Positions 8,533 to 44,808 of a stretch of DNA of 64,000 bases are shown here, piece after piece. Origin of the DNA: Halorubrum trapanicum (GTDB lineage Archaea > Halobacteriota > Halobacteria > Halobacteriales > Haloferacaceae); assembly GCF_017873555.1 (NCBI RefSeq), contig NZ_JAGGKE010000012.1, positions 1-64,000 of the forward strand. Direction: 5' to 3'. Position numbers and translations under genes: made by a program. The notes beneath the pieces were generated by a model, which ran no database searches, was not told the DNA's origin, and was given only the letters and a program-made list of their open reading frames with translations. Numbering within the stretch: position 1 is the stretch's first letter; every line of letters starts with the position of its first letter.

Positions 8533-8922
8533 ATGAAGACCACACGGCACGCGACCTACAACCTCAACTATCACATAGTGTGGTTGCCGAAGTACCGCAA
8601 CTCGGTACTCAAAGGCGAGGTCGCCAGCCGCATCCGGTCCATCCTCCACGAAATAGCCGACAACAAGGGCGTCGAAATTCTCGACCTCACCGTCCAGCCC
8701 GATCACGTTCACCTGTTCGTCAGTAGTCCACCCAAGAACGAACCGGCGCTCCTCGCTAACTGGTTCAAAGGTATCTCCTCACGCAAGTACAACCACCGCT
8801 ACGCCGACCACGACGGCGAGAAAATCGGATGGGCGCGAGGCTACTACGCAGGGACCGCCGGGCACGTTTCGAGCGAGACAGTCGAGAACTACATCCAGCA
8901 ACACAAGGAGAGCGACTCGTGA
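8533..8922 (+). CDS. tnpA: Y1 (HUH) single-strand transposase TnpA
   Basis: Complete 129-residue IS200-type transposase that nicks and joins single-stranded element ends. The HUH metal motif is seen as HVH in PDHVHLFVS (~56-64), and the catalytic tyrosine is the Y of ENYIQQ near the C-terminus. The length is typical for the family. The stop overlaps the GTG of the tnpB relic. It appears functional, so it could mobilise this copy and related ends elsewhere in the window. Confidence 0.93.
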   Translation: MKTTRHATYNLNYHIVWLPKYRNSVLKGEVASRIRSILHEIADNKGVEILDLTVQPDHVHLFVSSPPKNEPALLANWFKGISSRKYNHRYADHDGEKIGWARGYYAGTAGHVSSETVENYIQQHKESDS

Positions 8923-9742
8923 CCGAACTCACGAAGACGCTCGAACTCAAACTCGTGGACCCGAACGCTCACAAGCGGCGGAAACTCCGTGAGACGCAAG
9001 AAACGTCACCGCCACCCGCGACGTGGGGGAACGCTCTGAGGCGTCCGCCGAAGAACGGACGCCTATCGGAGTGGACATCGGGGAAGCGTCACTCGTCACG
9101 GTGTGTCACCGCGACGACCACGGTTCTCCGACCGCGCCCGAACTGTGGGCCGACGAGGGAAAGACCGTTCGTCGGCTCCGCAAGACCTACTTCACCGCCA
9201 AGCGCCGACTCCAGACGCGGGAAAGCGAGCGGATCGCGGAGTCCTTTGGCGACGACCTGTGGAACCAGATAGACGATGTGTTCCACCGGGTCACCCGCGA
9301 AGTCGTGGAATACGCCGAATCCGTCGAGAATCCTGTGCTGGTTTTGGAAGATCTGACGTACATCCGGGAGTCGATGGACTACGGCGACTTCATGAACCGG
9401 CGTCTCCACGGATGGGGGTTCGCCAAACTCCACGCGCAGATACGCCACAAGGCCGTCGAGAAGGGAATCTCCGTTGAGACGGTGAACCCGCGCAACACCT
9501 CGAAGGAGTGCCACGCTTGCGGTGAAGTGGGATACCGCCCACGACAGGCGACGTTCAAGTGTACGAACGACGACTGCTGGATGGGCGAGTACCAAGCGGA
9601 CGTGAACGGGGCGATAAACATCGCAGACCGCTACCTCGGCGGAGAGAGCTATTCAAGAGAACACAGGGATGGCGATGACTCGGCTGAGGATGGGGGGCGT
9701 TTGACCGCCCCACAAGACACCCACGTCGATGCTGAGACCTAG
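8919..9742 (+). pseudogene. tnpB: tnpB relic with internal deletion and frame change
   Basis: The first ~28 codons from GTG 8919 encode a TnpB N-terminus (ELTKTLELKL). At about 9000-9005 the frame switches and the text jumps straight to VTATRDVGERSEAS and the RuvC-I motif (GVDIGEAS). RuvC-II glutamate (VLEDLTYIRE), the CHAC...C...C zinc knuckle and RuvC-III (ADVNGA) follow in the second frame to 9742. Some 110-150 residues (the wedge/REC-like part) are missing. This is a decayed RNA-guided nuclease, not a working one. Confidence 0.85.
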
Positions 9743-9921
9743 CAGGCGACGCGTGGAACGTATGCGTCTTGAAACCGTCAGGCCACGCTCGGCCTGAAAT
9801 CCCGTGGTGGGATTCTCGCGTCTTCAGACGCGGGAGGAGGTCAAGCCTCGTTTCACCGTTCCCATGGAATTAGAATTCTCCCCATTCGGTATAGGTGGTC
9901 CAAATGTAACTTCATCTTAAC

Positions 9922-10596
9922 ATGAGGGCGGACACACCACCAACTCCCGACGCGGCCAGTCGGGATCTGTATGTCGCGTTTGAGATAACGCCCGTAATGG
10001 AAAGCGACTGTCCCCTGAACGAATTCGACGGTGAGGCTGATGTGATCGAAATAAACCAGCAACTACAACACGGTCAGTGCCGCACCGAAACGATGATTCA
10101 GCCCAATGGGTCCCCTGACTCCTCGGACTGCGGGAAAGCGAACGTCGTCCATTCGGCCAGTGATGTCGGAGAGGACTGTTACTGTGCGGTTTTCGGTGAT
10201 TTCGGGTGTATCCCCAAAATTGCCGGTGTTAACGGGGATACGATTCATATCGAGACGTTTCTCTCCGATCGAGAGCGACTTACCGACCTGGTTGAGGCAC
10301 TGAAAGCAGTTACCGAAGAACTGCGACTTCAACAACTGAAACCGATCGACTCCACCAACAATAGTGACGCCTCCAGCCAAACGGTTACGCTCGTTCTCGA
10401 CGAGGTCACAGAGAAACAGCGTGAAGCGGTCACGAAGGCGGTCGCAGCGGGCTACTACTCCACCCCACGTGAGGCGTCACTTGAAGAATTGGCTGACGAT
10501 CTCGGCATCTCGAAATCAGCGTACTCGCAGCGGTTGAACGCCGTCGAGTCAACACTGGCGACCAGAGCGTTCGCGAACACCACCACCGACATGTGA
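9922..10596 (+). CDS. dmsR: Bacterio-opsin-activator-type HTH regulator, DmsR-like
   Basis: A 224-residue regulator. The C-terminal third (VTEKQREAVTKAVAAGYY...LEELADDLGISKSAYSQRL) is the HTH-10 domain of the Bat family. The N-terminal part is Cys-containing (CYCAVF, CIP) and could sense redox or a small molecule. It stands just upstream of the DMSO-reductase operon. A regulator of this family, DmsR, precedes the dms genes in Halobacterium, and the symbol rests on that context. A ~520 bp IS derivative now lies between regulator and operon. The ATG at 9922 follows the IS right end by about 75 bases. Confidence 0.7.
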   Translation: MRADTPPTPDAASRDLYVAFEITPVMESDCPLNEFDGEADVIEINQQLQHGQCRTETMIQPNGSPDSSDCGKANVVHSASDVGEDCYCAVFGDFGCIPKIAGVNGDTIHIETFLSDRERLTDLVEALKAVTEELRLQQLKPIDSTNNSDASSQTVTLVLDEVTEKQREAVTKAVAAGYYSTPREASLEELADDLGISKSAYSQRLNAVESTLATRAFANTTTDM

Positions 10597-11481: not shown

Positions 11482-11721
11482 ATGACGGAGGAATCACGAC
11501 CTCACCACGAGCCGATACCGGAGTGGGATGAGATCGCCGATGAGATTCTCGAGGGGTGTGGGTACGACCCGGACCTCGGAAAGCGCATGGCCGAAGACGC
11601 CATCAAGATCGCGAACGGCGAACTGACCGAGCAGGAGTTCCACGAGCGGTACCACGAGGAGGTCAAAGCCGAGTTCGGGACTGACGACCGACCCACGAAA
11701 CCGGAGGGGTTCGATGACTGA
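11482..11721 (+). CDS. dmsE: Small protein opening the DMSO-reductase operon, DmsE-like
   Basis: A 79-residue acidic protein with a single Cys (GCGYDPDLG). It resembles the small 'ferredoxin N-terminal domain' proteins that precede molybdopterin oxidoreductases in haloarchaea. The name dmsE follows the gene order of the Halobacterium operon and not a known activity. The ATG at 11482 is chosen over the GTG-type start 60 bases upstream. It overlaps dmsA by 8 bases (ATGACTGA), so the two are translationally coupled. Confidence 0.6.
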   Translation: MTEESRPHHEPIPEWDEIADEILEGCGYDPDLGKRMAEDAIKIANGELTEQEFHERYHEEVKAEFGTDDRPTKPEGFDD

Positions 11722-14224
11722 CGACGAACTCACTGCGTCCCGCCGGGACATCCTCAAAACTGGCGCTGTCGCCGGGGTCGGTCTCGGCGGTGGTAGTGGC
11801 GTTCTTTCGACGCTCCAGCCCGCTGACGAATCGGGCGAAGCCGTCGATCAGGTGACGAGCTTCCTCGGCGAAGATCAAGTTGTCAAGACGGCGTGCGGGC
11901 CAAACTGTCGGGGCGATTGTCCACTTGACGTGTTCGTCCGGGATGGCCAGATAAAGAAGACTGAACAGCAGGTTCCGGCAGCGTCCGAGTTCAAGCGCGG
12001 CTGTACGCTTGGTATATCGCACGTACAGCGGGCGTACAACGCCAAGCGCCTTAAGTACCCGATGAAACGCGCGAGCTGGTCTCCGGATGACCCACAACCG
12101 GGTGCTCGTGGAGAAGACGCACAGTTTGAACGTATCAGTTGGTCCGAAGCGCTTGATCTGGTAGCAGAGCAGATACAGACGACCAAAGGGGAATACGGTC
12201 CTGAGAGCGTGTACTGGCATGCTGGGTCGGGGAGTCAAGGGACATCGGGGTACGGACGTCTCAAACAGCTTGTCGGCGGCATTCAAGACAGTTTCGTCTA
12301 CGGGATCGACACCAACGTCGGACAGGGATTCAACCGCATCACCGGCGAGGGTGGCGTATTCATGCCACCGACAAACACCGTCGAAGACTGGGCGAACGCT
12401 GACACGCTGATCATCTGGGGGTCGGACATCTTCGCGAGTCAGTTCCAGATGGACGCCGAATGGATACTAGATGCGAAGCGCAATGGGGCGAAGCTTGTCG
12501 TCGTCGACCCGATGTACACAAACACCGCGGAAAAAGCTGACCTCTGGCTGCCGATCCGGCCGGGAAAAGACACGCACCTCGCGCTCGCAATGATGAACTA
12601 CATCTTTGAGAACGAGGTGTACGACGATACCTTCCTCCGACAGCGTACCAACGCACCCGCGCTCGTCCGCGTTGACGATGGAACCCTTTTCGATCCGACT
12701 CGGGTCTCAGATAATCCACCGGACGGCGGAATCGTCGTGATGAACGAAGAGACCAGCGAGCCAAATGTCGTCGGGGCCGAAACCGGTGGCCCATTCGCGC
12801 TGTTCGGCGAGTGGACGATAGACGGTGTGGCCGTTCGCACCGGACTCGCTGCCCTTCGGGAACAGGCATCGGAGTATCAGCCTGCTGATGTCGCTGAAGT
12901 CGCGGGGCTTAGTGTGGCGGATATTAAAACGGCTGCCGACTGGCTTGCGACACGAGGCGCCGGAGGGATTCTTCCGGCGTACAGTGTCGGTCGCTACCTG
13001 TATGGGCATGTTTTCGGACAGGCGTATGCGACGCTGATGGCACTGACCGGGGACTACGGTCGTCATGGAAACGTCCATGCCCAGCACCCCTCTTACGGCG
13101 GACCGTCGCTTCAAACGGGCGACTGGGGGAACCCCGAAGGTGGAGTTAGTCTAGACACGTATGGATACCAAGAAATTCTCAGTCTGCTTGAAAACGGCGA
13201 CCCTGTCCAGCCACGGTTCCTGTACGGGACGAATTCAAACATGCTCGGGAACCAGTTCCCGAACCGGGAACGGTGGCTGAACGCGATGGAGTCCCTCGAT
13301 ACGATCGTGTGGGCAGACATGTACCACACGCCGACCACCCAGCAGGCAGACATTATTCTCCCAGCAGCACACTGGTTCGAGACGGAGGACGTACTCGGCT
13401 CGGACCACCACCCGAATATCAGGTACCGGGAGCAAGCCCACGAACCGCTCTGGGAGGCGCGCGACGACTACTATATCATGGCGGGGATAGCCGAACGCCT
13501 CGGCCATGGAGACAAGTTCCCCGACGACAAGAGAGAAGTCCTCGACCGCTTCGTACAGAACGACGACCGGCTTTCTTGGGAACAACTCCGAGAGAACGGA
13601 ACAGTCGAAACCGACGAAACGCCGACAGTCGCGTACACTGACGCGTTCGGGACCGAGTCCGGTCGGATAACGGTGTACGACGACGACGCGCCGACCGAAA
13701 AAGGACCGGGGCTGCCCGACGAGGGTATCTCGCTCGAAGTCCCAGAGCCGCTGGAAGCCAGAACTGCTGACGACTGGGAGGCCCAAAACGAGTACCCCCT
13801 AGTGTTCATGCAGAAGCACTCGAAGTGGCGGATTCACTCACAGTGGGCGAACGTCCCGTGGCTCCGGGAGGTGAACCGGGAACCGCAGCTCGACATCCAT
13901 CCGAAAGACGCCGAACAACGTGACATCTCTGACGGAGAGTACGTGCTCGTCCACAACGACCGCGGCTCGATGGTCGTTCGCGCGAAGTACAACGAGGGAA
14001 TACAGCCTGGACTTGTGAACACGGACCAAGGCTGGTGGGCAGAGGACTTCGTCGAGGGGCACTATCAGGACCCGATCTCCGCGGAGACTGCAGACGTCGG
14101 GCGTACGTTCGCGTTCTACGACTGTCGAGTGGAGGTCGAGCGTGCGGCGGAGGAGTACCAGTCCAACCAGTACACACAGGATAATCCGCGTGGTACAGCT
14201 GGTAGCGCTAGCGGAGGTGACTGA
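11714..14224 (+). CDS. dmsA: DMSO-reductase-family molybdopterin catalytic subunit
   Basis: An 836-residue Mo-bisMGD enzyme, exported folded by Tat (SRRDILKTG at residues 9-17). It reduces an external acceptor such as DMSO or TMAO. A [4Fe-4S] motif is visible (C61, C65, C69, C97), and MGD-binding signatures occur throughout (IIWGSDIFAS, VVDPMYTNTAEKADLWLPIRPG spanning ~229-282). Where E. coli DmsA has its Mo-ligand serine, this protein reads YGIDTN (~residue 196), so Asp or Thr may be the ligand. The substrate is therefore uncertain within the DMSO-reductase family. It is followed at 2 bases by the iron-sulfur subunit. Confidence 0.88.
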   Translation: MTDDELTASRRDILKTGAVAGVGLGGGSGVLSTLQPADESGEAVDQVTSFLGEDQVVKTACGPNCRGDCPLDVFVRDGQIKKTEQQVPAASEFKRGCTLGISHVQRAYNAKRLKYPMKRASWSPDDPQPGARGEDAQFERISWSEALDLVAEQIQTTKGEYGPESVYWHAGSGSQGTSGYGRLKQLVGGIQDSFVYGIDTNVGQGFNRITGEGGVFMPPTNTVEDWANADTLIIWGSDIFASQFQMDAEWILDAKRNGAKLVVVDPMYTNTAEKADLWLPIRPGKDTHLALAMMNYIFENEVYDDTFLRQRTNAPALVRVDDGTLFDPTRVSDNPPDGGIVVMNEETSEPNVVGAETGGPFALFGEWTIDGVAVRTGLAALREQASEYQPADVAEVAGLSVADIKTAADWLATRGAGGILPAYSVGRYLYGHVFGQAYATLMALTGDYGRHGNVHAQHPSYGGPSLQTGDWGNPEGGVSLDTYGYQEILSLLENGDPVQPRFLYGTNSNMLGNQFPNRERWLNAMESLDTIVWADMYHTPTTQQADIILPAAHWFETEDVLGSDHHPNIRYREQAHEPLWEARDDYYIMAGIAERLGHGDKFPDDKREVLDRFVQNDDRLSWEQLRENGTVETDETPTVAYTDAFGTESGRITVYDDDAPTEKGPGLPDEGISLEVPEPLEARTADDWEAQNEYPLVFMQKHSKWRIHSQWANVPWLREVNREPQLDIHPKDAEQRDISDGEYVLVHNDRGSMVVRAKYNEGIQPGLVNTDQGWWAEDFVEGHYQDPISAETADVGRTFAFYDCRVEVERAAEEYQSNQYTQDNPRGTAGSASGGD

Positions 14225-14226
14225 CT

Positions 14227-15000
14227 GTGACAAACTATGGACTCGTAATCGACCAAGAGCGCTGTATCGGATGCCAATCCTGCGCAATTACGTGTAAGCA
14301 GGAGAACAACGTTTCGATGGGTCAGGCCTGGAACCGCGTGCTAACTGTCGGTGGAGACCACGTCGACACTCCCGAAGGCTCGTACCCCGAGGATGGAGAC
14401 GGTGGGACGCTGGAGATGAGCTACCAGCCGACGGCGTGTCAGCACTGTGAGAACGCGCCCTGTGTCAAGGTCTGTCCCGTGAACGCGACGTTCACGCGCG
14501 AGGACGGTATCGTAGAGATCGACTACGACAAGTGTATCGGCTGCCGGTACTGTATGGCGGCCTGTCCGTACAACGCTCGCGTGTTCAACTGGGAGGATCC
14601 ACAACACGTCCCAGAAGAGGGCACTGGAGATGTCGAAGAGCGGCCCCAGGGCGTCGTTGAGAAGTGTACGTTCTGTAGCCACCGCGTCGAGGAGGGACTC
14701 GACCCATCCTGTGTCGTGAACTGTCCCGCCGACGCTCGCATCTTCGGGGACTTCGACGACGAGAACAGTACCGTCTCGAAGTACGTCGCCGAATACGACA
14801 CCCATCAGCTGCTTGATGATAAGGGAACCGACCCGAAAACCTACTACATTCAGGGTGAGATGTCGCCCGGTCGGCCCTGGAAGGGGAAGGAACTTGAGGA
14901 AGAACTCGACGAGGAGCCGACCGCCGAGGAGCCAGCCGACGTTACCGGCGATGAGTCGGTCTCAGGTGCTGCTGCCAACCCGACCGGGGGTGACGACTGA
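14227..15000 (+). CDS. dmsB: Four-cluster ferredoxin subunit of the reductase
   Basis: A 257-residue electron-transfer subunit with a GTG start. Four Cys groups are in order: CIGCQSCAITC (C13-C23), CQHCENAPC..C, CIGCRYCMAAC and CTFCSHR...C..C. This is the DmsB/NrfC pattern for four [4Fe-4S] clusters, passing electrons from the membrane subunit to dmsA. The C-terminus is an acidic tail rich in E and D. It overlaps dmsC by one base (TGATG). Confidence 0.9.
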   Translation: MTNYGLVIDQERCIGCQSCAITCKQENNVSMGQAWNRVLTVGGDHVDTPEGSYPEDGDGGTLEMSYQPTACQHCENAPCVKVCPVNATFTREDGIVEIDYDKCIGCRYCMAACPYNARVFNWEDPQHVPEEGTGDVEERPQGVVEKCTFCSHRVEEGLDPSCVVNCPADARIFGDFDDENSTVSKYVAEYDTHQLLDDKGTDPKTYYIQGEMSPGRPWKGKELEEELDEEPTAEEPADVTGDESVSGAAANPTGGDD

Positions 15001-16328
15001 TGGCGGGTGAAACTGCCGACAGAGCTACCACGTCCGCGGCTCGCGCACCAGTGCTGTCCTCGTTCGGAACCGTTTCGAAAGCCTGGCTCGGCCTCCTCGG
15101 CGTGCTGCTCATGGCCGGGCTCGGTGCGTGGGCGTACCAGCTCCAGCAGGGACTCGCCGTGACGGGGATGCGGAACGTGTTCTCGTGGGGGCTGTACATC
15201 ATGCTGTTCGTGATGTTCGTCGGGCTGTCGGCGGGTGGTCTCATCATCTCAAGCGCTCCGAAGTTCTTCCACTCGGACCGCTACGAGGAGTTCGCCAGGC
15301 TCGGTGTGCTCGTGAGTCTCGCCTGTATCATCGTCGCGGGTCTGCTCATCCTTCCCGACATCGGACGTCCCGGGCGGCTCTACCAGTTCTTCACGTCGCC
15401 GGATTTCCGCTCGCCGATGGTCTGGGACTTCGGCATCGTCGTGCTGTACGGCGTGTTGAACCTGTGGTACCTCTGGCTGCTGACTCGGCGTGACCTCGCT
15501 GCCCGCGGTTCGCGGTTCGCCTTCGGTACCGAGGACACACAGTCGGGCCGGGACCGAGACCGGAAGCTGTTGTTCTGGACCGCCGCAGTCGCGTTGCCGA
15601 CGGCGATCATGCTGCACTCGGTGACCGGCTGGATATTCGCGACGCAGGTCGGACGCGGTGACTGGTTCAGTCCGCTCGTCGCACCGGTGTTCATCGCCAA
15701 GGCGCTCGTCTCCGGGCTGGGGCTTCTACTCGTGGTCTCGATCCTCGCCGACCGCTACACGGCCTTCGATGCCGACCGCGACGAACTGGCGAGCTTGGGG
15801 AAGGTTTTGGGCGTCTTCCTCGCGTTCCACGTCGTCTATCTCCTCGCTGCCGAACGCCTCCCACACGCGTGGGCGGACCACTTCGGCTTCTGGGCGATCA
15901 CGAGCGAGTTCCTCATCGGGGACTCCATCTACTTCTGGCTCTGGACCGGTCTCGGCGGTGCCCTGCCGCTGGTGTTGTTGCTGATTCCGACACTCCGGAA
16001 GCGGCTATCCGTGATACTCGCCGCGGGCACACTTGCTGTGGCCGGTACCTTGTTTGAGGGAATTCGGCTAGTGTTCACCGGCTACGAGAGTGTGAACATC
16101 GACGCCGCACCGGGTATCTCGCTGGGCGGTGAGTACGCGGGCGTCGCGACAGACATCTGGGCTACTTCGGGCACCTACACCCCGACGCTGGTCGAAGTGG
16201 TCGTCACGGCCGGAATCATCGCAGTCGGCGCACTGGTCGTCACCGTCGGGCTCAGGTACCTGCCCCTACAGCAACCGACAACCCAGGGGACGTACGCGGC
16301 AGACGGAGGGAACGAGGGCCATGACTGA
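15000..16328 (+). CDS. dmsC: NrfD/DmsC-type membrane anchor and quinol-oxidising subunit
   Basis: A 442-residue integral membrane protein with about eight to ten hydrophobic helices. The first begins near residue 25 (KAWLGLLGVLLMAGLGAWA). It carries the Gly-rich and Arg/Asp loops of the NrfD/PsrC family (SAGGLIISSAPKFF, LPDIGRPGRL). In the complex it anchors dmsAB and takes electrons from menaquinol. It overlaps dmsD by 8 bases. Confidence 0.87.
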   Translation: MAGETADRATTSAARAPVLSSFGTVSKAWLGLLGVLLMAGLGAWAYQLQQGLAVTGMRNVFSWGLYIMLFVMFVGLSAGGLIISSAPKFFHSDRYEEFARLGVLVSLACIIVAGLLILPDIGRPGRLYQFFTSPDFRSPMVWDFGIVVLYGVLNLWYLWLLTRRDLAARGSRFAFGTEDTQSGRDRDRKLLFWTAAVALPTAIMLHSVTGWIFATQVGRGDWFSPLVAPVFIAKALVSGLGLLLVVSILADRYTAFDADRDELASLGKVLGVFLAFHVVYLLAAERLPHAWADHFGFWAITSEFLIGDSIYFWLWTGLGGALPLVLLLIPTLRKRLSVILAAGTLAVAGTLFEGIRLVFTGYESVNIDAAPGISLGGEYAGVATDIWATSGTYTPTLVEVVVTAGIIAVGALVVTVGLRYLPLQQPTTQGTYAADGGNEGHD

Positions 16329-34775: not shown

Positions 34776-36035
34776 ATGAGTGAGGATCCGAGAAATATCA
34801 TTCTTCTCTCCGCCGACGCGCTCCGTGCGGACCACCTCTCCTCGTACGGCTATCACCGCGAAACCTCGCCCGTTCTCGACGACTTGGCGCAGGAGTCGAT
34901 CCGGTTCGAGAACGCCTACAGCGCGAGCTCGCACACCCGTGAGGCGGTGCCCGCGCTGTTGACGGGCGAGTACCCGGACGTCGCGGTCGACGACGGCTAT
35001 CGACTCGCGACGGAGACGGTGGCGTCGACGCTCTCCGGGGAGGGGTTCGCGACCGCCGGCTTCCACTCGAACCCGTTCGTCTCGCGGGCGTACGGGTTCG
35101 ACGAGGGGTTCGATCACTTCGACGACGACCTCCATCTGGGCCAGCACAAGCTGGTCGCGCTCGCCCAGCGGGCGTTCGACAAGCTCCGGAACCGGCACTA
35201 CGCGCGGGCCGCGGAGATCAACGAGCGGTCGCTGTCGTGGCTGGACTCGCTGGACGACGAGCCGTTCTTCCTGTGGAACCACTACATGGACACCCATGGG
35301 CCCTACGAGCCGCCCGGGGAGTACGCGACGCTGTACGCTGACGAGTCGGTGTCCGGCCGGGAGGCGCAGTCGCTGTACCAGCGAGCGATCACAGACCCGG
35401 CGTCGATCACGGACGACGAGCGCGAGCTGCTGATCGACTTGTACGACGCCGAGATCCGATACAACGACGCGAAGATCGGTGAGTTCTTCGAGGCGCTTCG
35501 GGAGCGTGGGCTGTTGGAAGAGTCGCTTTTGATCGTCACCGCGGACCACGGCGACGCCTTCGGCGAGCACGCTTACTACGAACATCCGCGATACCTCCAC
35601 GATGAGATCACCAAGGTGCCGCTGTACGTGCGGCCGCCCGGGGGGCGTAGTGAGGTTGTAGAGACGCCCGCGAGCACATTGGACGTGGGCGCGACGATCG
35701 AGGCGGCGGTCGGCGTCGAGGCGACGGCCGACGGCGTGTCGCTGGTCGAAGAGCTCGGAGGCGATCGGACGGTCTTCTGTCAGGCACGCGGCGAGGACGA
35801 GCACAGCCACCTGCGGCGGTACGCGTCGCGGACCGCGGAGGGCGCGTGTTTCTGTGAGCGCGATCGGGAGTCGGGGACGATCGAATTCGGGGAGTGTGCG
35901 GGGTCCGCGTTGCGTGAGGAGTTGGAAGCGCACGTCGACGAGCGGGTCCGCGTCGAGAACGGGGAGTCGGTCGGAGACGAGGAAGAGGTCGACGAAGAGA
36001 TCGAACGACGGCTCGACGCGCTGGGATACAAATGA
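34776..36035 (+). CDS. Sulfatase-like alkaline-phosphatase-superfamily enzyme with Thr54
   Basis: 419 residues, with no signal peptide. Metal ligands are visible at the N-terminus (SADALRADH, D14) and in TADHGDAFGEH. In sulfatases the nucleophile is the Cys/Ser nine residues before the LTG motif. Here that place is Thr54 (SHTREAVPALLTG), as in phosphotransferases of the superfamily. It may therefore act on a phosphate or phosphodiester and not a sulfate ester. The C-terminus is ERRLDALGYK, a tail shared with three other proteins here. It is the first gene of a plus-strand glycan run. Confidence 0.8.
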   Translation: MSEDPRNIILLSADALRADHLSSYGYHRETSPVLDDLAQESIRFENAYSASSHTREAVPALLTGEYPDVAVDDGYRLATETVASTLSGEGFATAGFHSNPFVSRAYGFDEGFDHFDDDLHLGQHKLVALAQRAFDKLRNRHYARAAEINERSLSWLDSLDDEPFFLWNHYMDTHGPYEPPGEYATLYADESVSGREAQSLYQRAITDPASITDDERELLIDLYDAEIRYNDAKIGEFFEALRERGLLEESLLIVTADHGDAFGEHAYYEHPRYLHDEITKVPLYVRPPGGRSEVVETPASTLDVGATIEAAVGVEATADGVSLVEELGGDRTVFCQARGEDEHSHLRRYASRTAEGACFCERDRESGTIEFGECAGSALREELEAHVDERVRVENGESVGDEEEVDEEIERRLDALGYK

Positions 36036-36096
36036 GTGAGTCGGGGAACTTCACAGAGACAGGAGTAGACGAAGCACCGAGATGAACAGTCACATG

Positions 36097-36135
36097 AAAT
36101 ATATATGCGACCGGAACACTCGAACGAACGAGTGT
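36097..36135 (+). promoter_or_regulatory. Promoter with palindromic operator before the RHH gene
   Basis: TATA-like AAATATATAT (36097-36106) is followed by the perfect palindrome ACACTCG-AACGAA-CGAGTGT (36116-36135), 11 bases before the ATG at 36147. The palindrome would cover the transcription start, as expected for an autorepressor operator. Confidence 0.65.
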
Positions 36136-36146
36136 GATCACCACAG

Positions 36147-36359
36147 ATGACTGACCTTACCGTTTCTGAGGACCTCGCGAATCGAATCGAAACGCGTGTC
36201 GAACAGACGGAGTTCGAGACCGCCGACGAGTACGCGGAGTTCGTCCTCTCAGAAGTGGTGACGCGCGCCGAACGAGAAACGGATCGGTCCTCAGAGTCGT
36301 CGACTTCCAAAGAAGGTGTCCAAGAGCGACTTGAGTCGCTCGGCTACTTGGAGGAGTAA
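36147..36359 (+). CDS. Small ribbon-helix-helix-like protein with an LGY tail
   Basis: 70 residues. The first ~40 (LTVSEDLANRIETRVEQTEFETADEYAEFVLSEVV) fit a ribbon-helix-helix fold: one strand and two helices. A Ser/Thr/Glu linker follows, and the C-terminus is QERLESLGYLEE, the same RLxxLGY tail found on nearby hydrolases. It ends one base before the GTG of the next sulfatase-like gene. With the operator upstream it is probably an autoregulated repressor of the glycan genes, but DNA binding is inferred. Confidence 0.65.
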   Translation: MTDLTVSEDLANRIETRVEQTEFETADEYAEFVLSEVVTRAERETDRSSESSTSKEGVQERLESLGYLEE

Positions 36360-36360
36360 C

Positions 36361-37668
36361 GTGGCGAGCGACCAGCGAAATCTCGTCATGGTCACGGTGG
36401 ACAGCCTTCGTGCGGATCACTGTGGGTTCGTGAACGCCGAGTCGGATCTGACGCCGGCGATCGATAAGCTCGCCGACGAAGGGGTGTCCTTCACGCAAGC
36501 AGTTGCCCCCGGCCCCCGAACGCCGTCGTCGGTGCCGGTGTTCTTCACTGGCGAGTTCATGACCGACGACGAGTCGTGGACGATGGCGGACTGGCAGGGC
36601 CGGCAGGCGCGGATCGGCGAGCATATGCGGCGGTTCACCCATCTGAGCGAGCGGCTCCAGCGTCAGGGGTACGAGACCGCGGCGTTCACCGCGAATCCGT
36701 GGACGACCAGAGAGAGCAGTTTCGATCTCGGATTCGACGAGTTCACCGAGATTAGCGCCGACAGCCCGGACGTCTCGGCGAAACACCTCTCGGACTCGAC
36801 GCTGTTCAAACTCGCCGATACAGGGATCGAGGGCCTTCCCGGGGATCCCTTCGGCTGGAGTTCGAAGAAGGAATGGTTCTCCCAGTGGCCCGGATCGTTC
36901 GATCTGGTCGAGGAGGCGATTTCCGAGCTTCCCGAACCGTTCTTTCTCTGGGTGTTCATTCTGGACTCCCACCAGCCGTATATCACGCCGCGGCGGTACC
37001 GCGAGGAGTCCGCGGCGTGGGAGATGTACTACGCAATCCTCCGCTACTGGCAGGGCGAGACCGCCGACGAGGAATTGCCGGAGCGCGCCCGCGAGCTGAT
37101 CGGCGGCGCGTACCGAGACGCGGTCCGGTCGGTCGACGCGTTCGTGGACGCGATCCACGAGGCGACCCGAGATCGTGACCCGATCACGGTGTTCACCTCC
37201 GACCACGGCGAGGCGATCGGCGAACACGGGAACTTCGGCCACGAGCAGACGCTGTTCGAGGAGAATCTCCGGGTGCCGCTGTTCGTTCACGGGCTCGACG
37301 CGTCGGAGACTGTCGACGAGCAGTTTCCCTTACGGGGAGTGCCGGAGTTGCTCCTCGATCTCTCTCAGACGGACGAGTTCGACCCGCGAGACCACACGCA
37401 ACGGTTCGCAATCTCGAAGACCGAGAACAACCGGACGCGATCGGTCCGCACGCCCCGCTGGAAGTTGGTTAGCGATGTCGAGACCGGGACGGAGCGGCTC
37501 TACGATCTCGTTGCGGATCCCGACGAAACGACCGACGTTCGGGCCGAGTATCCAGAGGTCGGATCGCTGTTCGCGGAGTTGCTCGAACGACACGAGACGA
37601 CCCAAGCGGAGAAGGCGACGATCGAGGAGGCGACTAGCGATCTGCTCGCAGCGGAGGGATCTCTGTGA
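36361..37668 (+). CDS. Second sulfatase-like enzyme with Thr54
   Basis: 435 residues from GTG 36361, one base after the preceding stop. Metal-binding TVDSLRADH (D14) and TSDHGEAIGEHGNFGHEQTL are present. The nucleophile position, nine residues before FTG, is again Thr54 (PRTPSSVPVFFTG). There is no signal peptide. Unlike its neighbour it ends AAEGSL with no LGY tail. The stop overlaps the next gene's GTG (GTGA). It is probably part of surface-glycan decoration; phosphatase/phosphotransferase or sulfatase activity cannot be decided from sequence. Confidence 0.78.
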   Translation: MASDQRNLVMVTVDSLRADHCGFVNAESDLTPAIDKLADEGVSFTQAVAPGPRTPSSVPVFFTGEFMTDDESWTMADWQGRQARIGEHMRRFTHLSERLQRQGYETAAFTANPWTTRESSFDLGFDEFTEISADSPDVSAKHLSDSTLFKLADTGIEGLPGDPFGWSSKKEWFSQWPGSFDLVEEAISELPEPFFLWVFILDSHQPYITPRRYREESAAWEMYYAILRYWQGETADEELPERARELIGGAYRDAVRSVDAFVDAIHEATRDRDPITVFTSDHGEAIGEHGNFGHEQTLFEENLRVPLFVHGLDASETVDEQFPLRGVPELLLDLSQTDEFDPRDHTQRFAISKTENNRTRSVRTPRWKLVSDVETGTERLYDLVADPDETTDVRAEYPEVGSLFAELLERHETTQAEKATIEEATSDLLAAEGSL

Positions 37669-38921
37669 GCGAAAAAGTGGATGTGGTGGCTGGAAGCGAT
37701 ACGGACAGCAGCGAGGGGAGTGACATCGACGATTCGCTTCGAGTCTGTCTGATCACGAAGATGTACCCGCCGCGGACGGGCGGTGGGGCAACGTACGCGT
37801 ACGAGCTCGCGAACGCGCTCGGCGAGCTCGGCCACGAGGTCGACGTGTACACGCAAGCGGTATCAGAGGAGGACGAGTCGGTCGAGACCCATCCCAACGT
37901 CGACGTGACGCGAATCACGCAGGCTCGGCCGCTCGTCGTGTTCTCGACGCTGTACTTCAGCATCGCGTGTCGGCTCCGGATCGAGTTCGAAGAGTACGAC
38001 GTGATCCACGGAACGTTGATGCCCGCCTCGACGATCGCGTTCGGGCCGTGGTTCCTCAAGGGGTTGGACGCGCCGCTGGTGTTGACGAGTCACGGCACGT
38101 CCTACGACGAGGCGCGGTCGGTGGATCCGGACGGGTTCGCCGACTACCTGTTTCGGTACTTCTTCCATCCGGTGAACGTGGTCATGGACGCGGTAAGCGG
38201 GCGCTTCGCGGATCAGATAATCGCGGTGAGCGACCACACGCGCGAGCAGCTGCGGGACCTGTACCGATTCGACGAGGCGAAGCTCACGACCGTGCCGCCG
38301 GGAATCGACACGGATCGGTTTCGGCCGACGAAGGAAGTCCATCCGGCTGTGGACGAGTCGAAACGGACGATCCTCGTGGTGAGTCGACTTGATCCGCGCA
38401 AGGGGATCGACAAGGCGATTCGGGCGTTCGCGCAGTTGGACCGGGACGACACCGAGCTGTTGATCGGTGGGACCGGACGACTGGAGGCGTCGCTTCGGGA
38501 GCTGGCGGCAGGTCTCGGCGTGGCCGATCGGGTTCGGTTCCTCGGGTTCGTTCCCGACGAGGAACTGCCGTCGCTGTACTCCGCAGTGGACCTGTTCGTG
38601 TTGCCCTCGGAGTACGAGGGGTTCGGCATTGTGTTCATGGAGGCGATGGCCTGTGGGACGCCAGTCGTTGGTACTTCAGTTGGAGGGGTTCCGACAGCGG
38701 TTGCGGATGGTGAGACGGGGTATCTAGTCGAGAAGAGTAATATTGAGGGGTTAGCAGAACGGATTGGGAAAGTATTGAGAGATTCGGAGCATTCCGCTCA
38801 ACTGTCAGAAAATGCTCGGAATTGGGCAGTGGAACATGACTGGATGTCTATCGCGACGCGTGTGGACGAAATATACCGCTCTACTCAAAAAGAATGTGCT
38901 GAACCTCTGAATGATGCTTGA
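37665..38921 (+). CDS. Family 4 glycosyltransferase with a compositional break
   Basis: A 418-residue GT-B enzyme. A Gly-rich loop (RTGGGATYAYELANALGELG) is followed by a donor domain with VVSRLDPRKGIDKAIRAF and the EX7E motif in EYEGFGIVFMEAMA (~318). Codon use is GC-rich until about 38690, then becomes AT-rich (codons such as AGT, AAT, ATT, TTA) for the last ~77 codons and stays so in the following genes. The gene looks like a mosaic, with a recombination joint in the conserved C-terminal domain. Confidence 0.87.
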   Translation: MSEKVDVVAGSDTDSSEGSDIDDSLRVCLITKMYPPRTGGGATYAYELANALGELGHEVDVYTQAVSEEDESVETHPNVDVTRITQARPLVVFSTLYFSIACRLRIEFEEYDVIHGTLMPASTIAFGPWFLKGLDAPLVLTSHGTSYDEARSVDPDGFADYLFRYFFHPVNVVMDAVSGRFADQIIAVSDHTREQLRDLYRFDEAKLTTVPPGIDTDRFRPTKEVHPAVDESKRTILVVSRLDPRKGIDKAIRAFAQLDRDDTELLIGGTGRLEASLRELAAGLGVADRVRFLGFVPDEELPSLYSAVDLFVLPSEYEGFGIVFMEAMACGTPVVGTSVGGVPTAVADGETGYLVEKSNIEGLAERIGKVLRDSEHSAQLSENARNWAVEHDWMSIATRVDEIYRSTQKECAEPLNDA

Positions 38922-40806
38922 GTACGTTATTCAATGGCTCCGGAGATACGCAACAGTTCTTCTCTTAGCTGTTGGATTGCTATTGCTGTACGTTTTTGTT
39001 TCTTTAGAGTTCTGGTCAATTGTCGGTCCAATTCTCGGGGTTGCGATCGGTGGTTTTCTCGGTGTCGTCGGATTACTACTGAAGCGGTTCTATTTACCCT
39101 CGAATCTGTCCATTGATTCCGAGAATGATCCGTTAGATGCTCGTATTCCGATAATCCTCGCTTGTCTGTACGCTGCTGCGATAATCGTTCTTTTCCGGTT
39201 TCATACGTATCAGCGGCCTCCTCTCCTGTACGTGCTCTTCGGCGGCTATGCGGGACTCATTGCGTATCAAATAGCTAGAGGAGCGCCACCACGCAGTATC
39301 GTTCCCCAGATAGCATCGTTATCGTTCTTCACCTATTGGAGCAGTCAACTCCTATTTCCGGCGGGAATGGCCGGTCCTGATACGCTACAGGGGTATATTC
39401 CCGGTGTGGAATATATCCTTTCGACCGGAAATATTCTATCTGGACAGACAATATACGCAGGCCATCTCGCTCATACAGCGGCATTTTCCCAAATCACCGG
39501 ATTGTCTCCGCAACTCGGATATTTTCTCCTCGCGACATTGTTGCTCGTCTGTACTGTTCTGGTGATATCTATTCTTGATCACGTTTTTCCTTCGATAACG
39601 CGACGGATGGCGCTCTACGCGACACTCATCTTTGCCACGTCTAGTTGGATGCTTGGTCGCGGTATGCATCCGAACAAATTGAATTTCTTTTATGCGCTGA
39701 TTCTCCTCCTAGGTAGCACCGGTGTGCTACTATACCGGTCGTTGGAATTGCCCAACCCGGCGAGAAGGAGGGTTTTACTTGGAATCACCATTATGCCTGC
39801 ACTCATATTTGGTCATCAGTTCAGTGCCGGAGCCGCGATGATCCTTCTTATTGTACTCGGTGTGTTCGCGTTTGTTTCAAGCCTGATCACGCCACGAGAG
39901 TACGCTCCAATGACATCTGCCAAAGGTGCTCTCCTGTTCGTCAGTGTGTATCTCCTCGGTGTGATGGGTAATCCGATTCACCAAGACCCACTGGTGGGAC
40001 GGTTCACTGGACTTCTGTTATCGGTCGTTCAATCATCGGAAACGGGGACAGCTACGGGCGGACCGGGACGATATTCAGAACTCGCAATCGACGTACTGAT
40101 CGCCAGCACGGCTGCTCAAACGATTCTCTTCGTATTGTCAATTCTCGGAGCGGTATGGCTGTTTCGGCGGAGCGAATGGGAGTACGACTTTGTCCTCACT
40201 TGGATCGGTGCTATCTCTCTTCTGCTGGTCGTGAGCCTACTAACGAACTCGGTAGATACTGCACCGCAACGTTTCTACGGATTGCTCATACTCTTCGGGT
40301 TCAATATCTGTGTCGGTACACTATTCTATGTGATCGATAGGCGTGGGAGGATCAGTAATGGTCATATCACAATCAGCGGTGGCCGAATCACGGTCGTCTT
40401 TCTCGTAATCTCTCTTTCAGTGGCAGGTCTCGCATCTCCCGTAGCAGATAAGGCAACTTCTCCAGTTGGAGACGACCTACCACACTTCCGTCAGTTCAAT
40501 ACACATCAGGAGATACAAGGCGATAAATGGACTCAAACATATGTGGACGGATCACTACAACTGACTCACCCTGGAACATCCATCCCAATTGAACAGACTG
40601 GACCAAATACGGGGGAAGCAAACCTGACTGGTGTCGATCGAGGGACTCTAATTTCCTATTCTGATCTCACCAATCGGACAGGAGTGATTTCAGAATCCGG
40701 CCTTTCATTGGGTGGGCGACAATTCGTATTCGTCGAATCACCAGAACAGCCGACAGATAGTCGCGTCTATGAGAATGGAGAAACCAGAGTATTCGTCCAC
40801 AGATAA
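38911..40806 (+). CDS. Polytopic membrane protein of the glycan island
   Basis: A 631-residue protein with about twelve hydrophobic helices from residue ~13 on (ATVLLLAVGLLLLYVFVSLEF). A soluble C-terminal domain of ~130 residues follows the last helix (~500), with sequons, and would face outside. I do not recognise the family. The layout recalls membrane glycosyltransferases or polymerases that use lipid-linked donors. The ATG at 38911 (or 38914) overlaps the glycosyltransferase stop. It is AT-richer than the upstream genes. Confidence 0.65.
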   Translation: MMLEYVIQWLRRYATVLLLAVGLLLLYVFVSLEFWSIVGPILGVAIGGFLGVVGLLLKRFYLPSNLSIDSENDPLDARIPIILACLYAAAIIVLFRFHTYQRPPLLYVLFGGYAGLIAYQIARGAPPRSIVPQIASLSFFTYWSSQLLFPAGMAGPDTLQGYIPGVEYILSTGNILSGQTIYAGHLAHTAAFSQITGLSPQLGYFLLATLLLVCTVLVISILDHVFPSITRRMALYATLIFATSSWMLGRGMHPNKLNFFYALILLLGSTGVLLYRSLELPNPARRRVLLGITIMPALIFGHQFSAGAAMILLIVLGVFAFVSSLITPREYAPMTSAKGALLFVSVYLLGVMGNPIHQDPLVGRFTGLLLSVVQSSETGTATGGPGRYSELAIDVLIASTAAQTILFVLSILGAVWLFRRSEWEYDFVLTWIGAISLLLVVSLLTNSVDTAPQRFYGLLILFGFNICVGTLFYVIDRRGRISNGHITISGGRITVVFLVISLSVAGLASPVADKATSPVGDDLPHFRQFNTHQEIQGDKWTQTYVDGSLQLTHPGTSIPIEQTGPNTGEANLTGVDRGTLISYSDLTNRTGVISESGLSLGGRQFVFVESPEQPTDSRVYENGETRVFVHR

Positions 40807-40828
40807 CCGTTTTGTAGAGAATTTTGTT

Positions 40829-41527
40829 CTAGGGTCGCAGATTCCTTGCTACTTTGATCAGTATTTCACCAACCTTCGGGAACGTCTGATAACACATGGC
40901 TACGACTAAACCCACCTGTCTACCGAACGGGATATTCGGATAGTATAGGACAGTAAAGTACCGCTTTGGATATCTCGATCTGAATTTTTGTTCCTTTTCG
41001 CGGTCTACATTCGTTCTGGTCGGTCCATCATGTACCACCTCCAATTCTGGATCGTGATGACAGCATTCCACTCCGTACTCGTCTTCCATTCTCCATCCAA
41101 AATCAGTATCTGCACGCCACCCTGCGAATTCAGAATCGAACCCACCGATATCAAGGGCAGCTTTCCGCCGATACGCCATATTGGCACCAATATAATGTCG
41201 TGCGGGAAGCCGTAGTTTGTCAAGCGGCCCTTCTAATAGTACCTTTTCAGGATGGTCATCGAAGAAATTTCGAATTCGCTCAACCCAATCTTCAGGCGGA
41301 TAGCAGTCATCGTCCGTTTGGGCGATTACTTCGGCGTTCGCTTCTTCGATTCCCTTGTTCCGGGCTTCACACCGATTTAGAGATGCATCCGATACGACGA
41401 CAACCTCAAATTGATCTTCGGTTTGCTTTTGAAGTGCAGAAAGAGTTTTGAGTTCGTACTCAGGGATCGTTGGAATAACGACCGAAACAGCAGGATCCGG
41501 ATGTGTGATCGGTCTTTCAATCGCCAT
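40829..41527 (-). CDS. Family 2 glycosyltransferase
   Basis: A 232-residue GT-A enzyme. It has VSVVIPTIPEYELKTLSALQKQT at the N-terminus, the DxD-type metal motif QTDDDCYPPEDW (~71-76), and a GWRADTDFGWRMEDEYG acceptor region. It is convergent with the membrane protein. It adds a sugar to a glycan; donor and acceptor are unknown. Confidence 0.85.
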   Translation of the reverse strand: MAIERPITHPDPAVSVVIPTIPEYELKTLSALQKQTEDQFEVVVVSDASLNRCEARNKGIEEANAEVIAQTDDDCYPPEDWVERIRNFFDDHPEKVLLEGPLDKLRLPARHYIGANMAYRRKAALDIGGFDSEFAGWRADTDFGWRMEDEYGVECCHHDPELEVVHDGPTRTNVDREKEQKFRSRYPKRYFTVLYYPNIPFGRQVGLVVAMCYQTFPKVGEILIKVARNLRP

Positions 41528-41593
41528 ACAGGTCTATGATTCCAATGTATTATATATCCTTTTAGATCGGATACAATTCTTTATTCTCGATAC

Positions 41594-42532
41594 TTATCGA
41601 TAACCAAGCGCTTCCAGTCGATCTTCAAGTTCCTCATCTGACGCCTCAGTCTCTGAGCGTACGGGCTCTGGCTCATAGTTCCCGGTATCAGTAGCACTGG
41701 TTTCTGTCCACGGAACTTTTCGAATAGCTGGATGGGGGAATCCGACCTCATGAGAATACAGACCCCATTCACCGAACAGTTCTCCGTGGTCACTCGTTAT
41801 GACGACGGTTTCGGCGTCGACGTTCTCAAGGAGTGTCTCTACGTAGTCAAGTACGAGACGTAAATTGTCCACGTAAGCAGTCCAGACATTATCGAAGTCT
41901 CCGCCATCTCTCAGGTATCCAAAGGGGCGTTCCTTCCAAGGAACATCTTCGGAAGTGGCTAGATACGGTCTATGGGGTTGCATATAATGGACTATCTGAC
42001 GTTCACAATCAGTTCGTCTGCCGGTGCGTATCGCACAATCTGTGACCTTCTCAGGGTGTAACTGGGAGATGTCATCGTCATCTACCATCCCCCATAGATC
42101 CACGAATTCACCGAAGTCATCGGCAGTGAGGAGATCACCCCTCACCAAGCCAGATAGAAACTTGCTGTTTTCAAAACGGGTGTCCTCAGTCCAAGTATAC
42201 GCAACCCTCTTTCCTACGGTATCCTTTAGATGACTGGAGAATGGATTTGGAGTGACGTAGGCGGTCAATTCGACCTCGTCCCGATATTGCTCGACAAACG
42301 TATTCTCCATCCATTCTTTCGAGGTACTTCCCCGAGACCAACGCGTCTCTATTTCTTCGATAAAATCGTATTCGTCCTGTACTTCCTGTAAAGCATCTAC
42401 CCGGCAGGCATCCAAAATCACCAGCAGGTCCCAGTCGTCTTCGTATATATTCCGCCCCCACCGTACGTGAGATTGCGCTACTGCAGTAGTAGATGCATAT
42501 AACGCCTTAGCCCCATCTATAACCCAGCTCAT
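41594..42532 (-). CDS. Short alkaline-phosphatase-superfamily enzyme with LGY tail (a)
   Basis: 312 residues from ATG 42532. Metal-binding LLVILDACRVDAL (D41) and TSDHGELFGEWGLYSHEVGFPHPAIRKVPW are visible. The best nucleophile candidate is Ser71 in GSTSKEWM, 30 residues after D41; the sister protein at 43924 has the same spacing. There is no signal peptide. It ends EDRLEALGYR. It belongs to the sulfatase/phosphatase superfamily, but the substrate is unknown. Confidence 0.75.
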   Translation of the reverse strand: MSWVIDGAKALYASTTAVAQSHVRWGRNIYEDDWDLLVILDACRVDALQEVQDEYDFIEEIETRWSRGSTSKEWMENTFVEQYRDEVELTAYVTPNPFSSHLKDTVGKRVAYTWTEDTRFENSKFLSGLVRGDLLTADDFGEFVDLWGMVDDDDISQLHPEKVTDCAIRTGRRTDCERQIVHYMQPHRPYLATSEDVPWKERPFGYLRDGGDFDNVWTAYVDNLRLVLDYVETLLENVDAETVVITSDHGELFGEWGLYSHEVGFPHPAIRKVPWTETSATDTGNYEPEPVRSETEASDEELEDRLEALGYR

Positions 42533-42997
42533 GGGCAAGAGTTAGTTCCGACTTTCATTAACTTATCGCAGCAAAAGGAAAGGTGTCAAGGTTAGAGAGT
42601 CATATGTGGACACGGAGAAAGCAGCGATCATGATCTGGTAGTCTAGCTCAAAACGTACTTCAGCCGATGAAACCACTGTCTAATCGCCTTATACAGCCGA
42701 CTGGTGATAGTTCGATCCGTCGGTAAACAGGCCAGCATGGAACAAGCAACGCTGCGATAACACACCGCTCTGTCGACGTGTCTTTAGTAGAAAACACTTC
42801 CAATGGTGGCCTTTTTCCACATGCGGTGAGCATTGCTGATGTGCCACGCAACACTCTCGGTTGTTCCCATCACGCTAAAGTTGATAACCTTTTCAGCAGA
42901 AATTAGGTCTCCGATCTATTCCAGACATAGACTCGTAACCACGGAGTACAGTTTTATACGGTAACCATAAAAACAGCTACGTAGTCACAGTAATCAT
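42533..42997. other. Intergenic region, possible relic, and promoter of the GT2 gene
   Basis: No convincing gene in about 465 bases. A short minus-strand reading (FSTKDTSTERCVIAALL, ~42700-42800) might be a transposase scrap, but I cannot place it. TTTATACGG at about 42952-42960 is a fair TATA box for the gene at 42998. Confidence 0.4.
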
Positions 42998-43756
42998 ATG
43001 TGTGTTTCAGCGATTATACCGACTTACAACGAAGAGAGGGAGTTAGAAGAGGCATTAACCTCCGTCATATGGTGTGACGAGGTTATTATCGTCGATAGTC
43101 AAAGTACCGATAGAACTCGGGAAGTCGCCAGGTCGAGGGGAGCGAAAGTGGTTGACGCACCAAAACCAGAGCAGGGTGAACCATTCGATCATCTACGGCA
43201 GTTAGGTATTGACGCAGCAACCAACGATTTAGTTCTCTTCATAGATGCAGATGAGAGACATCCAAAGGCACTCCAAGAACGCCTTCAAGAGCTTAAAGAG
43301 CAGCCCACCGAGGATATCGGCGTGGTCCGTGCTCCGATTTTGAATTATCTTGGAAATAAACAACTATCCGGAGGGCTACAATCACTTGGCTATACACCGA
43401 CCTTGCTGAACCCTGAAAAGGTGGAACTCAAGAAAAAGGTCCATAGTTTTCTTGAGTACGATGAGGATGACGCTTATGATCTTGAGCCAGATCCTGAGTT
43501 AGCCGTTCGACACCAGTTGGCAGAATCCCTCTACGAGCACTGGCAGGCCCAACGCCGATACGCAAAAATCGCAGGCAGTAATAGGGAATTCAAGCTCTGG
43601 AAATTATTCTTATCTCCTCCTTGGGGCATATATCACCATGTTATCGAAAATCAGGGATGGAAGGATGGTTTCATTGGCATCGGTATTGGCATCTGCTATG
43701 GTTGGTTTTTATTTGAATCACAGCTAAGAGGTGCTTTGAGTAAGTTTTATTTTTAA
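42998..43756 (+). CDS. Family 2 glycosyltransferase (WaaE/KdtX-like)
   Basis: 252 residues. SAIIPTYNEERELEEAL and DEVIIVDSQSTDRT form the nucleotide-binding part. The metal motif is FIDADERHP (~85-92). A distinctive H-x-E-type tail region (YEHWQAQRRYAKIAG) resembles the LPS-core beta-glucosyltransferase group. A hydrophobic stretch near the C-terminus suggests membrane association. Confidence 0.83.
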   Translation: MCVSAIIPTYNEERELEEALTSVIWCDEVIIVDSQSTDRTREVARSRGAKVVDAPKPEQGEPFDHLRQLGIDAATNDLVLFIDADERHPKALQERLQELKEQPTEDIGVVRAPILNYLGNKQLSGGLQSLGYTPTLLNPEKVELKKKVHSFLEYDEDDAYDLEPDPELAVRHQLAESLYEHWQAQRRYAKIAGSNREFKLWKLFLSPPWGIYHHVIENQGWKDGFIGIGIGICYGWFLFESQLRGALSKFYF

Positions 43757-43923
43757 AACTCTGATGGTCTGTATAACTAGAATCACAAACAAAGGGATGA
43801 ACTCTTATATCAGCCCCTTTCCCCTGTCCCTGTCTGGAATATTTACGTACAATGAACATTTTTGTACAGGCAGAACGTGCCGAAACCATTTTCTGGTAGT
43901 AGAAGGAGGGCCTACTTGTAATA

Positions 43924-44808
43924 ATGTCCTATCGGAGAATTCTCGAGGGTGTTCTCCATCCTGTGAAAGCAAGCCGCTATTTACGGACAGGTGCGAAACT
44001 TTGGTGGATGAAACACAAAGCGCCAAACATATTTAATCGGGAGTGGGATGTGCTCGTCATTTTAGACGCTTGTCGTGTTGATAGCCTTGAAAAACAGGTA
44101 CGAGATCGGGATAATTACGGAGATGTGGCGGAATATCTCTCTGTCGGAGCAAATTCTGCAACTTGGTTAGACGCTTACGAGGAAAAGCTCAAAAGCGACG
44201 ACATCGTCTATGTGTCTGCGAATCCTCATACAAAACCGTGTCTTGACTCAAACGGCTGCGTAGAGGTTTGGAAAACAAACTGGGATGAAGGACTTGGCAC
44301 GGTTCGAGCTGAGGATGTTACTGATGCGGCACTCTATCATTATGATCCTAAACCCTCCAACAGATTAGTAGTACACTATATGCAACCACATTTCCCCTCT
44401 GTTCCGCAGCCGCAATTTAACTCGGGGTTTGACAAGAAGGGAGTGACCGGAGACAATGAATCAAACTGGTCAGGATCGGTCTGGGAGCAGCTGAATAATG
44501 GAGATGTTGCCAATGAAGAGGTACAAGAGGCATATACGGAAAACCTGAAATATGTATTAGATGAGGTCGATGTTCTTACAACGTTCCTGTCTGACTGTAC
44601 AGTTTCTGTAACTGCAGATCACGGCAATTCGTTTACTGAACCTTATGGACATCCAGACAGAGCTACAAGCGACGCCGTCCGTCAGGTCCCGTGGTGTTAT
44701 GCCGAGGCAATCGAGGATCCCAAGAGACACCCAAAGGATATTGAAATGTCATCCATGGATGATAAAATCGATGTAGAAAAACGATTAAGCTCTCTCGGCT
44801 ATCGATAG
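43924..44808 (+). CDS. Short alkaline-phosphatase-superfamily enzyme with LGY tail (b)
   Basis: 294 residues. VLVILDACRVDSL (D48) and TADHGNSFTEPYGHPDRATSDAVRQVPW give the metal site. Candidate nucleophile Ser78 in GANSATWL lies 30 residues after D48, exactly as in the 41594 protein. The N-terminus (RILEGVLHPVKASRYLRTG) is basic and might sit on the membrane. It ends EKRLSSLGYR. It is AT-rich like its neighbours. Together with the 41594 protein it forms a distinct subfamily. Confidence 0.73.
   Translation: MSYRRILEGVLHPVKASRYLRTGAKLWWMKHKAPNIFNREWDVLVILDACRVDSLEKQVRDRDNYGDVAEYLSVGANSATWLDAYEEKLKSDDIVYVSANPHTKPCLDSNGCVEVWKTNWDEGLGTVRAEDVTDAALYHYDPKPSNRLVVHYMQPHFPSVPQPQFNSGFDKKGVTGDNESNWSGSVWEQLNNGDVANEEVQEAYTENLKYVLDEVDVLTTFLSDCTVSVTADHGNSFTEPYGHPDRATSDAVRQVPWCYAEAIEDPKRHPKDIEMSSMDDKIDVEKRLSSLGYR

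Follow-up and report, generated by a model that had tools for sequence, protein, structure and literature searches.

The question raised by this locus is why proteins with dissimilar bodies should share one C-terminal end. In a 64,000-nucleotide stretch of Halorubrum trapanicum DNA (RefSeq assembly GCF_017873555.1, contig NZ_JAGGKE010000012.1, positions 1 to 64,000; hereafter the window), three alkaline phosphatase (AlkP)-fold enzymes and a small protein with a predicted ribbon-helix-helix (RHH) body all end in the motif RLxxLGY, and the four tails that an earlier note had read from these letters are all present where it placed them (Table 1). The tail proves to be confined almost wholly to three unrelated families, namely AlkP-fold enzymes, a CysD-like protein and the family of the small protein, which we call RHH-LGY. 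Its probable role is that of a docking tag by which sulfation machinery is kept together. For the fuller proposal, in which the RLxxLGY end is a docking module of the archaeal sulfate-activation and sulfation machinery that RHH-LGY can supply in trans, we estimate a probability of roughly 0.5.

The specificity of the tail was gauged from C-terminal censuses, which cover haloarchaea; the searches for RHH-LGY cover the wider archaeal phylum. Across 24 haloarchaeal genomes, LxxLGYx followed by a stop codon occurs 117 times, versus 30 times for the reversed pattern. The genome that contains the window has 10 such ends, all on AlkP-fold or CysD-like proteins, and when TRA stops alone are counted there are nine, versus none for the reversed pattern. 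A total of 99 loci with this one-residue end were inspected and 98 could be placed: 63 AlkPs, 17 CysD-like proteins, two RHH-LGY proteins and 16 non-gene frames (15 shorter than 100 residues, and one 152-residue frame with an FGY end). Thus, each of the 82 ends assigned to a frame of gene length or to a known family belongs to an AlkP, a CysD-like or an RHH-LGY protein. With two residues after LGY, 20 of 22 ends fall in the same families (15 AlkP and 5 RHH-LGY), the exceptions being two mutually related P-type-ATPase-like proteins that lack the acidic linker; on its unrelated folds the tail follows flexible acidic linkers. Both censuses rule out a random spread over unrelated proteins and loci, the outcome that the earlier note had held to be fatal to its idea. 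Its picture of a tail on phosphatase-type enzymes and a regulator was too narrow, as the tail also ends the CysD-like protein and one adenosine 5′-phosphosulfate (APS) kinase.

The presence of the tail on these last two proteins points to sulfation. The CysD-like family has a PAPS_reduct domain (E = 4.8e-18), and its best NCBIfam match is CysD. It resembles the CysDN ATP sulfurylase (1ZUN) and PAPS-reductase-domain proteins in this domain and in ending with GY plus one residue, as bacterial CysD (1ZUN) does; it scores, however, far below the CysD cut-offs (75.7 against 195 bits). Among 59 haloarchaeal genomes, Sat was found in one and APS kinase over the cut-off in three, and CysN over the TIGR02034 cut-off in none, the CysN matches all being below cut-off and taken as the EF-1alpha paralogue. 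In the sole Sat-bearing genome, a single cluster (L295; G021:C31:5000-24900) combines Sat with a Sulfotransfer_3 protein, two tailed AlkPs and an APS kinase that carries ...IQERLKNLGYL as an addition beyond its domain; this cluster offers a natural test case. Outside haloarchaea, RHH-LGY genes have Sat, APS kinase, CysD or CysN within 5.5 kb at 17 of 20 loci, which come from related lineages and hence are not independent; the gene orders seen are RHH-Sat-DHH-AlkP-APS kinase, RHH-transporter-CysD-CysN and RHH-Sat. The link between tail and sulfation is strongly supported.

A further regularity concerns AlkPs without the tail. In the window, the small protein P0002 is indeed sandwiched between two AlkP enzymes, as had been pointed out, but only the upstream one (P0001) is tailed; P0003, immediately downstream, has no LGY end. 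Of the AlkPs nearest P0003, 27 of 28 likewise lack the tail, and the single tailed exception is about equidistant from both reference enzymes; the loci in this comparison were mostly fetched through RHH-LGY and include tail-less, RHH-linked relatives of P0001. When the P0003 class was searched independently of RHH-LGY, it was found in 20 of 145 genomes, every one of which also has RHH-LGY (Fisher p = 1e-19, uncorrected for phylogeny and on the assumption that all 145 were among the 194 genomes searched for RHH-LGY). Of 24 gene copies checked, 20 lie within 5 kb of RHH-LGY and all 24 on the same contig. Haloarchaeal RHH-LGY loci outside a core set have an AlkP within 5.5 kb in 36 of 42 cases, although the window's genome has no more than five proteins above the PF00884 cut-off; among core loci the figure is 1 of 9. 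The gene for the widespread core protein has, judged by eye in several genomes, a dolichol-phosphate glycosyltransferase-like gene as its neighbor. At another locus (L154), three tail-less AlkPs of the DACRYD type follow an RHH-LGY gene; they stop at or just past PWLE, where their haloarchaeal relatives run on into the tail. That P0003 has no tail speaks for complementation in trans and not for one tag shared by all partners. The docking or recognition tag proposed in the earlier note survives the test of random spread.

With respect to mechanism, the tail would be a short amphipathic helix with a Leu-Gly-Tyr end, tethered to its carrier by the acidic flexible linker. The AlkP-fold carriers would be sulfotransferases that act on glycans, like Agl30 and Agl31, and not phosphatases; the CysD-like protein would serve to activate or reduce sulfate. 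Where an AlkP has its own tail, the module may fold back on the catalytic domain or bridge to a neighbor, and the AlphaFold2 model of P0001 (mean pLDDT, the predicted local distance difference test score, 90.6) suggests that the tail packs on the enzyme body, because confidence recovers past a disordered linker: residues 401-404 fall below 50, a tail helix spans residues 407-415, and the mean over the final nine residues is 86. When tailed AlkPs, which were preselected for the tail, are aligned, L413, L416, G417 and Y418 vary no more than the catalytic residues do. For the tail-less class of P0003, the module would be provided in trans by the coupled RHH-LGY protein, an acidic, probably dimeric RHH-fold adaptor or scaffold rather than a transcription factor. 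An AlkP-type sulfotransferase would then need a docking helix, either its own or one borrowed from RHH-LGY, and this helix may in addition recruit the CysD-like protein or APS kinase to a common assembly. The data show the tails, their distribution over families, the gene pairing and the proximity to sat, apsK, cysD and cysN; from these we infer the sulfotransferase activity of the window's enzymes, the binding of the tail at a putative docking site, the stoichiometry, the dimerization and the supply in trans.

These proposed activities can be compared with characterized enzymes. Agl30 (VNG1056C) and Agl31 (VNG1057C) of Halobacterium salinarum are AlkP-fold N-glycan sulfotransferases encoded in a glycosylation cluster, one membrane-associated and the other soluble, with activity established by deletion and heterologous Haloferax expression (PMC11980604). 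The closest solved structure given there for Agl31 is 6HHM (PMC11980604). P0001 shares with VNG1057C the sulfatase-like AlkP fold, as its Foldseek matches are sulfatases (E about 1e-21) with 6HHM again the closest solved structure. The consulted sections of PMC11980604 make no mention of a tail, an RHH partner or a sulfate donor, and our full-text literature search returned no paper naming the tail. A precedent for contact between activation and transfer is the human pair PAPS synthase 2-SULT2A1, described as bringing sulfate activation into direct contact with a sulfotransferase (PMC6016456). It differs from the system proposed here in organism and in its unrelated folds. We know of no short tail shared by the two human enzymes.

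Table 1. Predicted AlkP-fold and RHH-LGY genes of the window and their C-terminal ends.
Feature	Coordinates	Strand	Remarks
P0001, AlkP-superfamily sulfatase-like enzyme	34776..36035	+	ends RRLDALGYK; tail in cis; Agl31-like
P0001 tail motif RLDALGY	36009-36029	+	after low-confidence linker
P0002, RHH-LGY protein, 70 aa	36147..36359	+	RHH-like body, acidic linker, tail ERLESLGYLEE
P0002 tail motif	36327-36347	+	
P0003, AlkP-superfamily enzyme without LGY tail	36361..37668	+	GTG start; ends AAEGSL
P0004, divergent AlkP-fold enzyme, DACRVD type	41594..42532	-	ends DRLEALGYR
P0004 tail motif	41600-41620	-	
P0005, divergent AlkP-fold enzyme, DACRVD type	43924..44808	+	ends KRLSSLGYR
P0005 LxxLGYR-stop	44785-44808	+	

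Genes were called with a codon-score script, families were assigned by phmmer and catalytic residues were judged by eye. P0001 and P0003 match Pfam PF00884 at E = 1e-44 and E = 5.7e-33, respectively. P0004, which is probably Agl30-like, has sub-threshold PglZ and Sulfatase matches, and P0005 a sub-threshold Sulfatase match (E = 5e-4). Judging from the sequence, P0002 and P0003 are translationally coupled, with P0002 inside an operon: the P0003 start lies one base past the P0002 stop, and at the orthologous loci L058 and L059 the counterparts overlap by 4 bp. Open reading frames around P0001 appear by eye to be glycosyltransferase-like and ABC-transporter-like.

The principal alternative is the model of the earlier note itself, in which all tailed proteins are gathered by one further partner of the tail, such as a scaffold, chaperone or membrane anchor, and RHH-LGY competes for this partner or organizes it. 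Such a partner would account for the finding of one tail, behind flexible acidic linkers, on folds that are unrelated, and for clusters with several tailed AlkPs (five in L311, four in L055). Yet no other recurring gene was seen by eye in the neighborhoods, and the pairing of tail-less AlkPs with RHH-LGY is more readily accounted for if the AlkP receives the tail directly. We regard a common partner as unlikely. Another view, in which the tail serves as a turnover signal or structural cap without partner function, inherited by related enzymes and persisting on the small protein by accident, draws on the relatedness of all AlkP carriers, as common descent could explain most occurrences, and on the AlphaFold2 model, in which the tail may merely cap the domain. 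It does not sit well with the recurrence of the tail on three folds that are unrelated and on the APS kinase of a sulfation cluster, to which it has been added, nor with related AlkPs that are paired with RHH-LGY and lack it. Moreover, a hidden Markov model of the RHH-LGY body (the first 42 residues, tail left out) found 87 distinct members, all 87 of which keep the tail, although the loci on which it was run had been fetched with whole-protein queries, which brings some bias toward the tail. We consider this explanation very improbable. Two known C-terminal signals were also rejected. The HbYX proteasome-docking end requires a hydrophobic residue just before a penultimate Tyr, where the tail always has Gly, and RHH-LGY proteins carry one to three residues after the Tyr; the archaeosortase/PGF-CTERM tag needs a hydrophobic membrane segment, where the tail consists of an acidic linker and a short terminal helix.

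The remaining alternative takes up the suggestion that the small protein is a putative DNA-binding regulator, acting on nearby AlkP or sulfation genes and sensing through its tail the enzymes under its control. The AlphaFold2 monomer of P0002 is strand-helix-helix, and its Foldseek matches, although weak (top match Reg576, E = 2.1), are mostly RHH-like DNA binders; core members also carry a ribbon reading TTVSIP. In predicted body and small size RHH-LGY resembles RHH proteins of the CopG/Arc/MetJ type. It differs from them in its long acidic linker, its conserved LxxLGY tail and its charge, with a net charge mostly of -5 to -23 that stays acidic beyond haloarchaea (-15 in L149 and L150), and the outward-facing central ribbon position expected to contact DNA carries a basic residue in 4 of 48 members and an acidic one in 16. 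Pfam RHH_1 recognizes just 2 of 19 members, and searches against Pfam, NCBIfam and PDB sequences gave no significant family. DNA binding is doubtful because the proteins are strongly acidic and the ribbon position seldom basic, and the gene in the window lies within an operon, coupled to P0003. The regulator role is, by these features, probably not the right one, and we rate local transcriptional control as improbable.

Several points weigh against the proposal of a sulfation docking module supplied in trans. Choosing loci through RHH-LGY inflates the pairing, a bias that the independent search for the P0003 class removes in part, and 7 of 12 close RHH-AlkP pairs are divergent, which also fits a regulator. 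The CysD-like tail may be older and have a separate role, given the GY end of bacterial CysD, and in most haloarchaeal genomes the CysD-like gene lies beside unrelated genes. Several AlkPs have neither a tail nor a nearby RHH-LGY in the stretch examined (for example, those of L350 and L347); therefore, the module is not required for the fold.

The tail offers a marker, readable from sequence, that picks out archaeal sulfation proteins at present annotated as sulfatases or phosphatases, and it predicts sulfated glycans in species that lack such measurements. It also bears on a gap: haloarchaeal N-glycans are sulfated by AlkP-fold enzymes, but the classical donor-making enzymes are missing from nearly all the haloarchaeal genomes searched. 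The tail singles out the CysD-like protein as a widespread candidate. Should the tail work in trans, one docking element would be shared between enzymes and a small adaptor. A bolder version, which we hold to be speculative and improbable, is that haloarchaea activate and transfer sulfate without the classical 3′-phosphoadenosine 5′-phosphosulfate (PAPS) enzymes, through an LGY-assembled complex of CysD-like and AlkP proteins, with RHH-LGY serving the tail-less enzymes.

In terms of distribution, RHH-LGY occurs in 159 of 194 genomes of the class and in 133 of 393 of the phylum. Plasmid and phage collections gave few haloarchaeal plasmid matches and no phage matches, and a related-locus search with a narrower alignment returned a single Halorubrum locus. 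The window's genome encodes a second RHH-LGY protein (L310:5672-5872; C5:55671) near a methionine-synthase-like gene. Tandem RHH-LGY pairs, one member acidic and the other neutral or basic, lie beside CysD/CysN at L153:5742-6262 and L156:5145-5581 and possibly form heterodimers.

The CysD-like gene is present in the window's genome as two near-identical LGYM-ending copies on contigs C1 (L055:6485-7456) and C22 (L057:4540-5523), and L302 has two diverged copies in tandem. At L055, a Phosphodiest-type tail-less AlkP gene lies about 30 bp from the tailed CysD-like gene in divergent orientation, and tail-less AlkPs are also found near the CysD-like gene at L301, L306 and L309. The same region of C1 (413000-432500; L055:5007-15731) contains four tailed AlkP genes in a row, with flippase-like and epimerase-like genes nearby. 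Elsewhere in the window, and unrelated to the tail, are an IS200/IS605-like transposase gene (8533-10596) and an apparent molybdopterin oxidoreductase operon (11714-16328), both recognized by eye.

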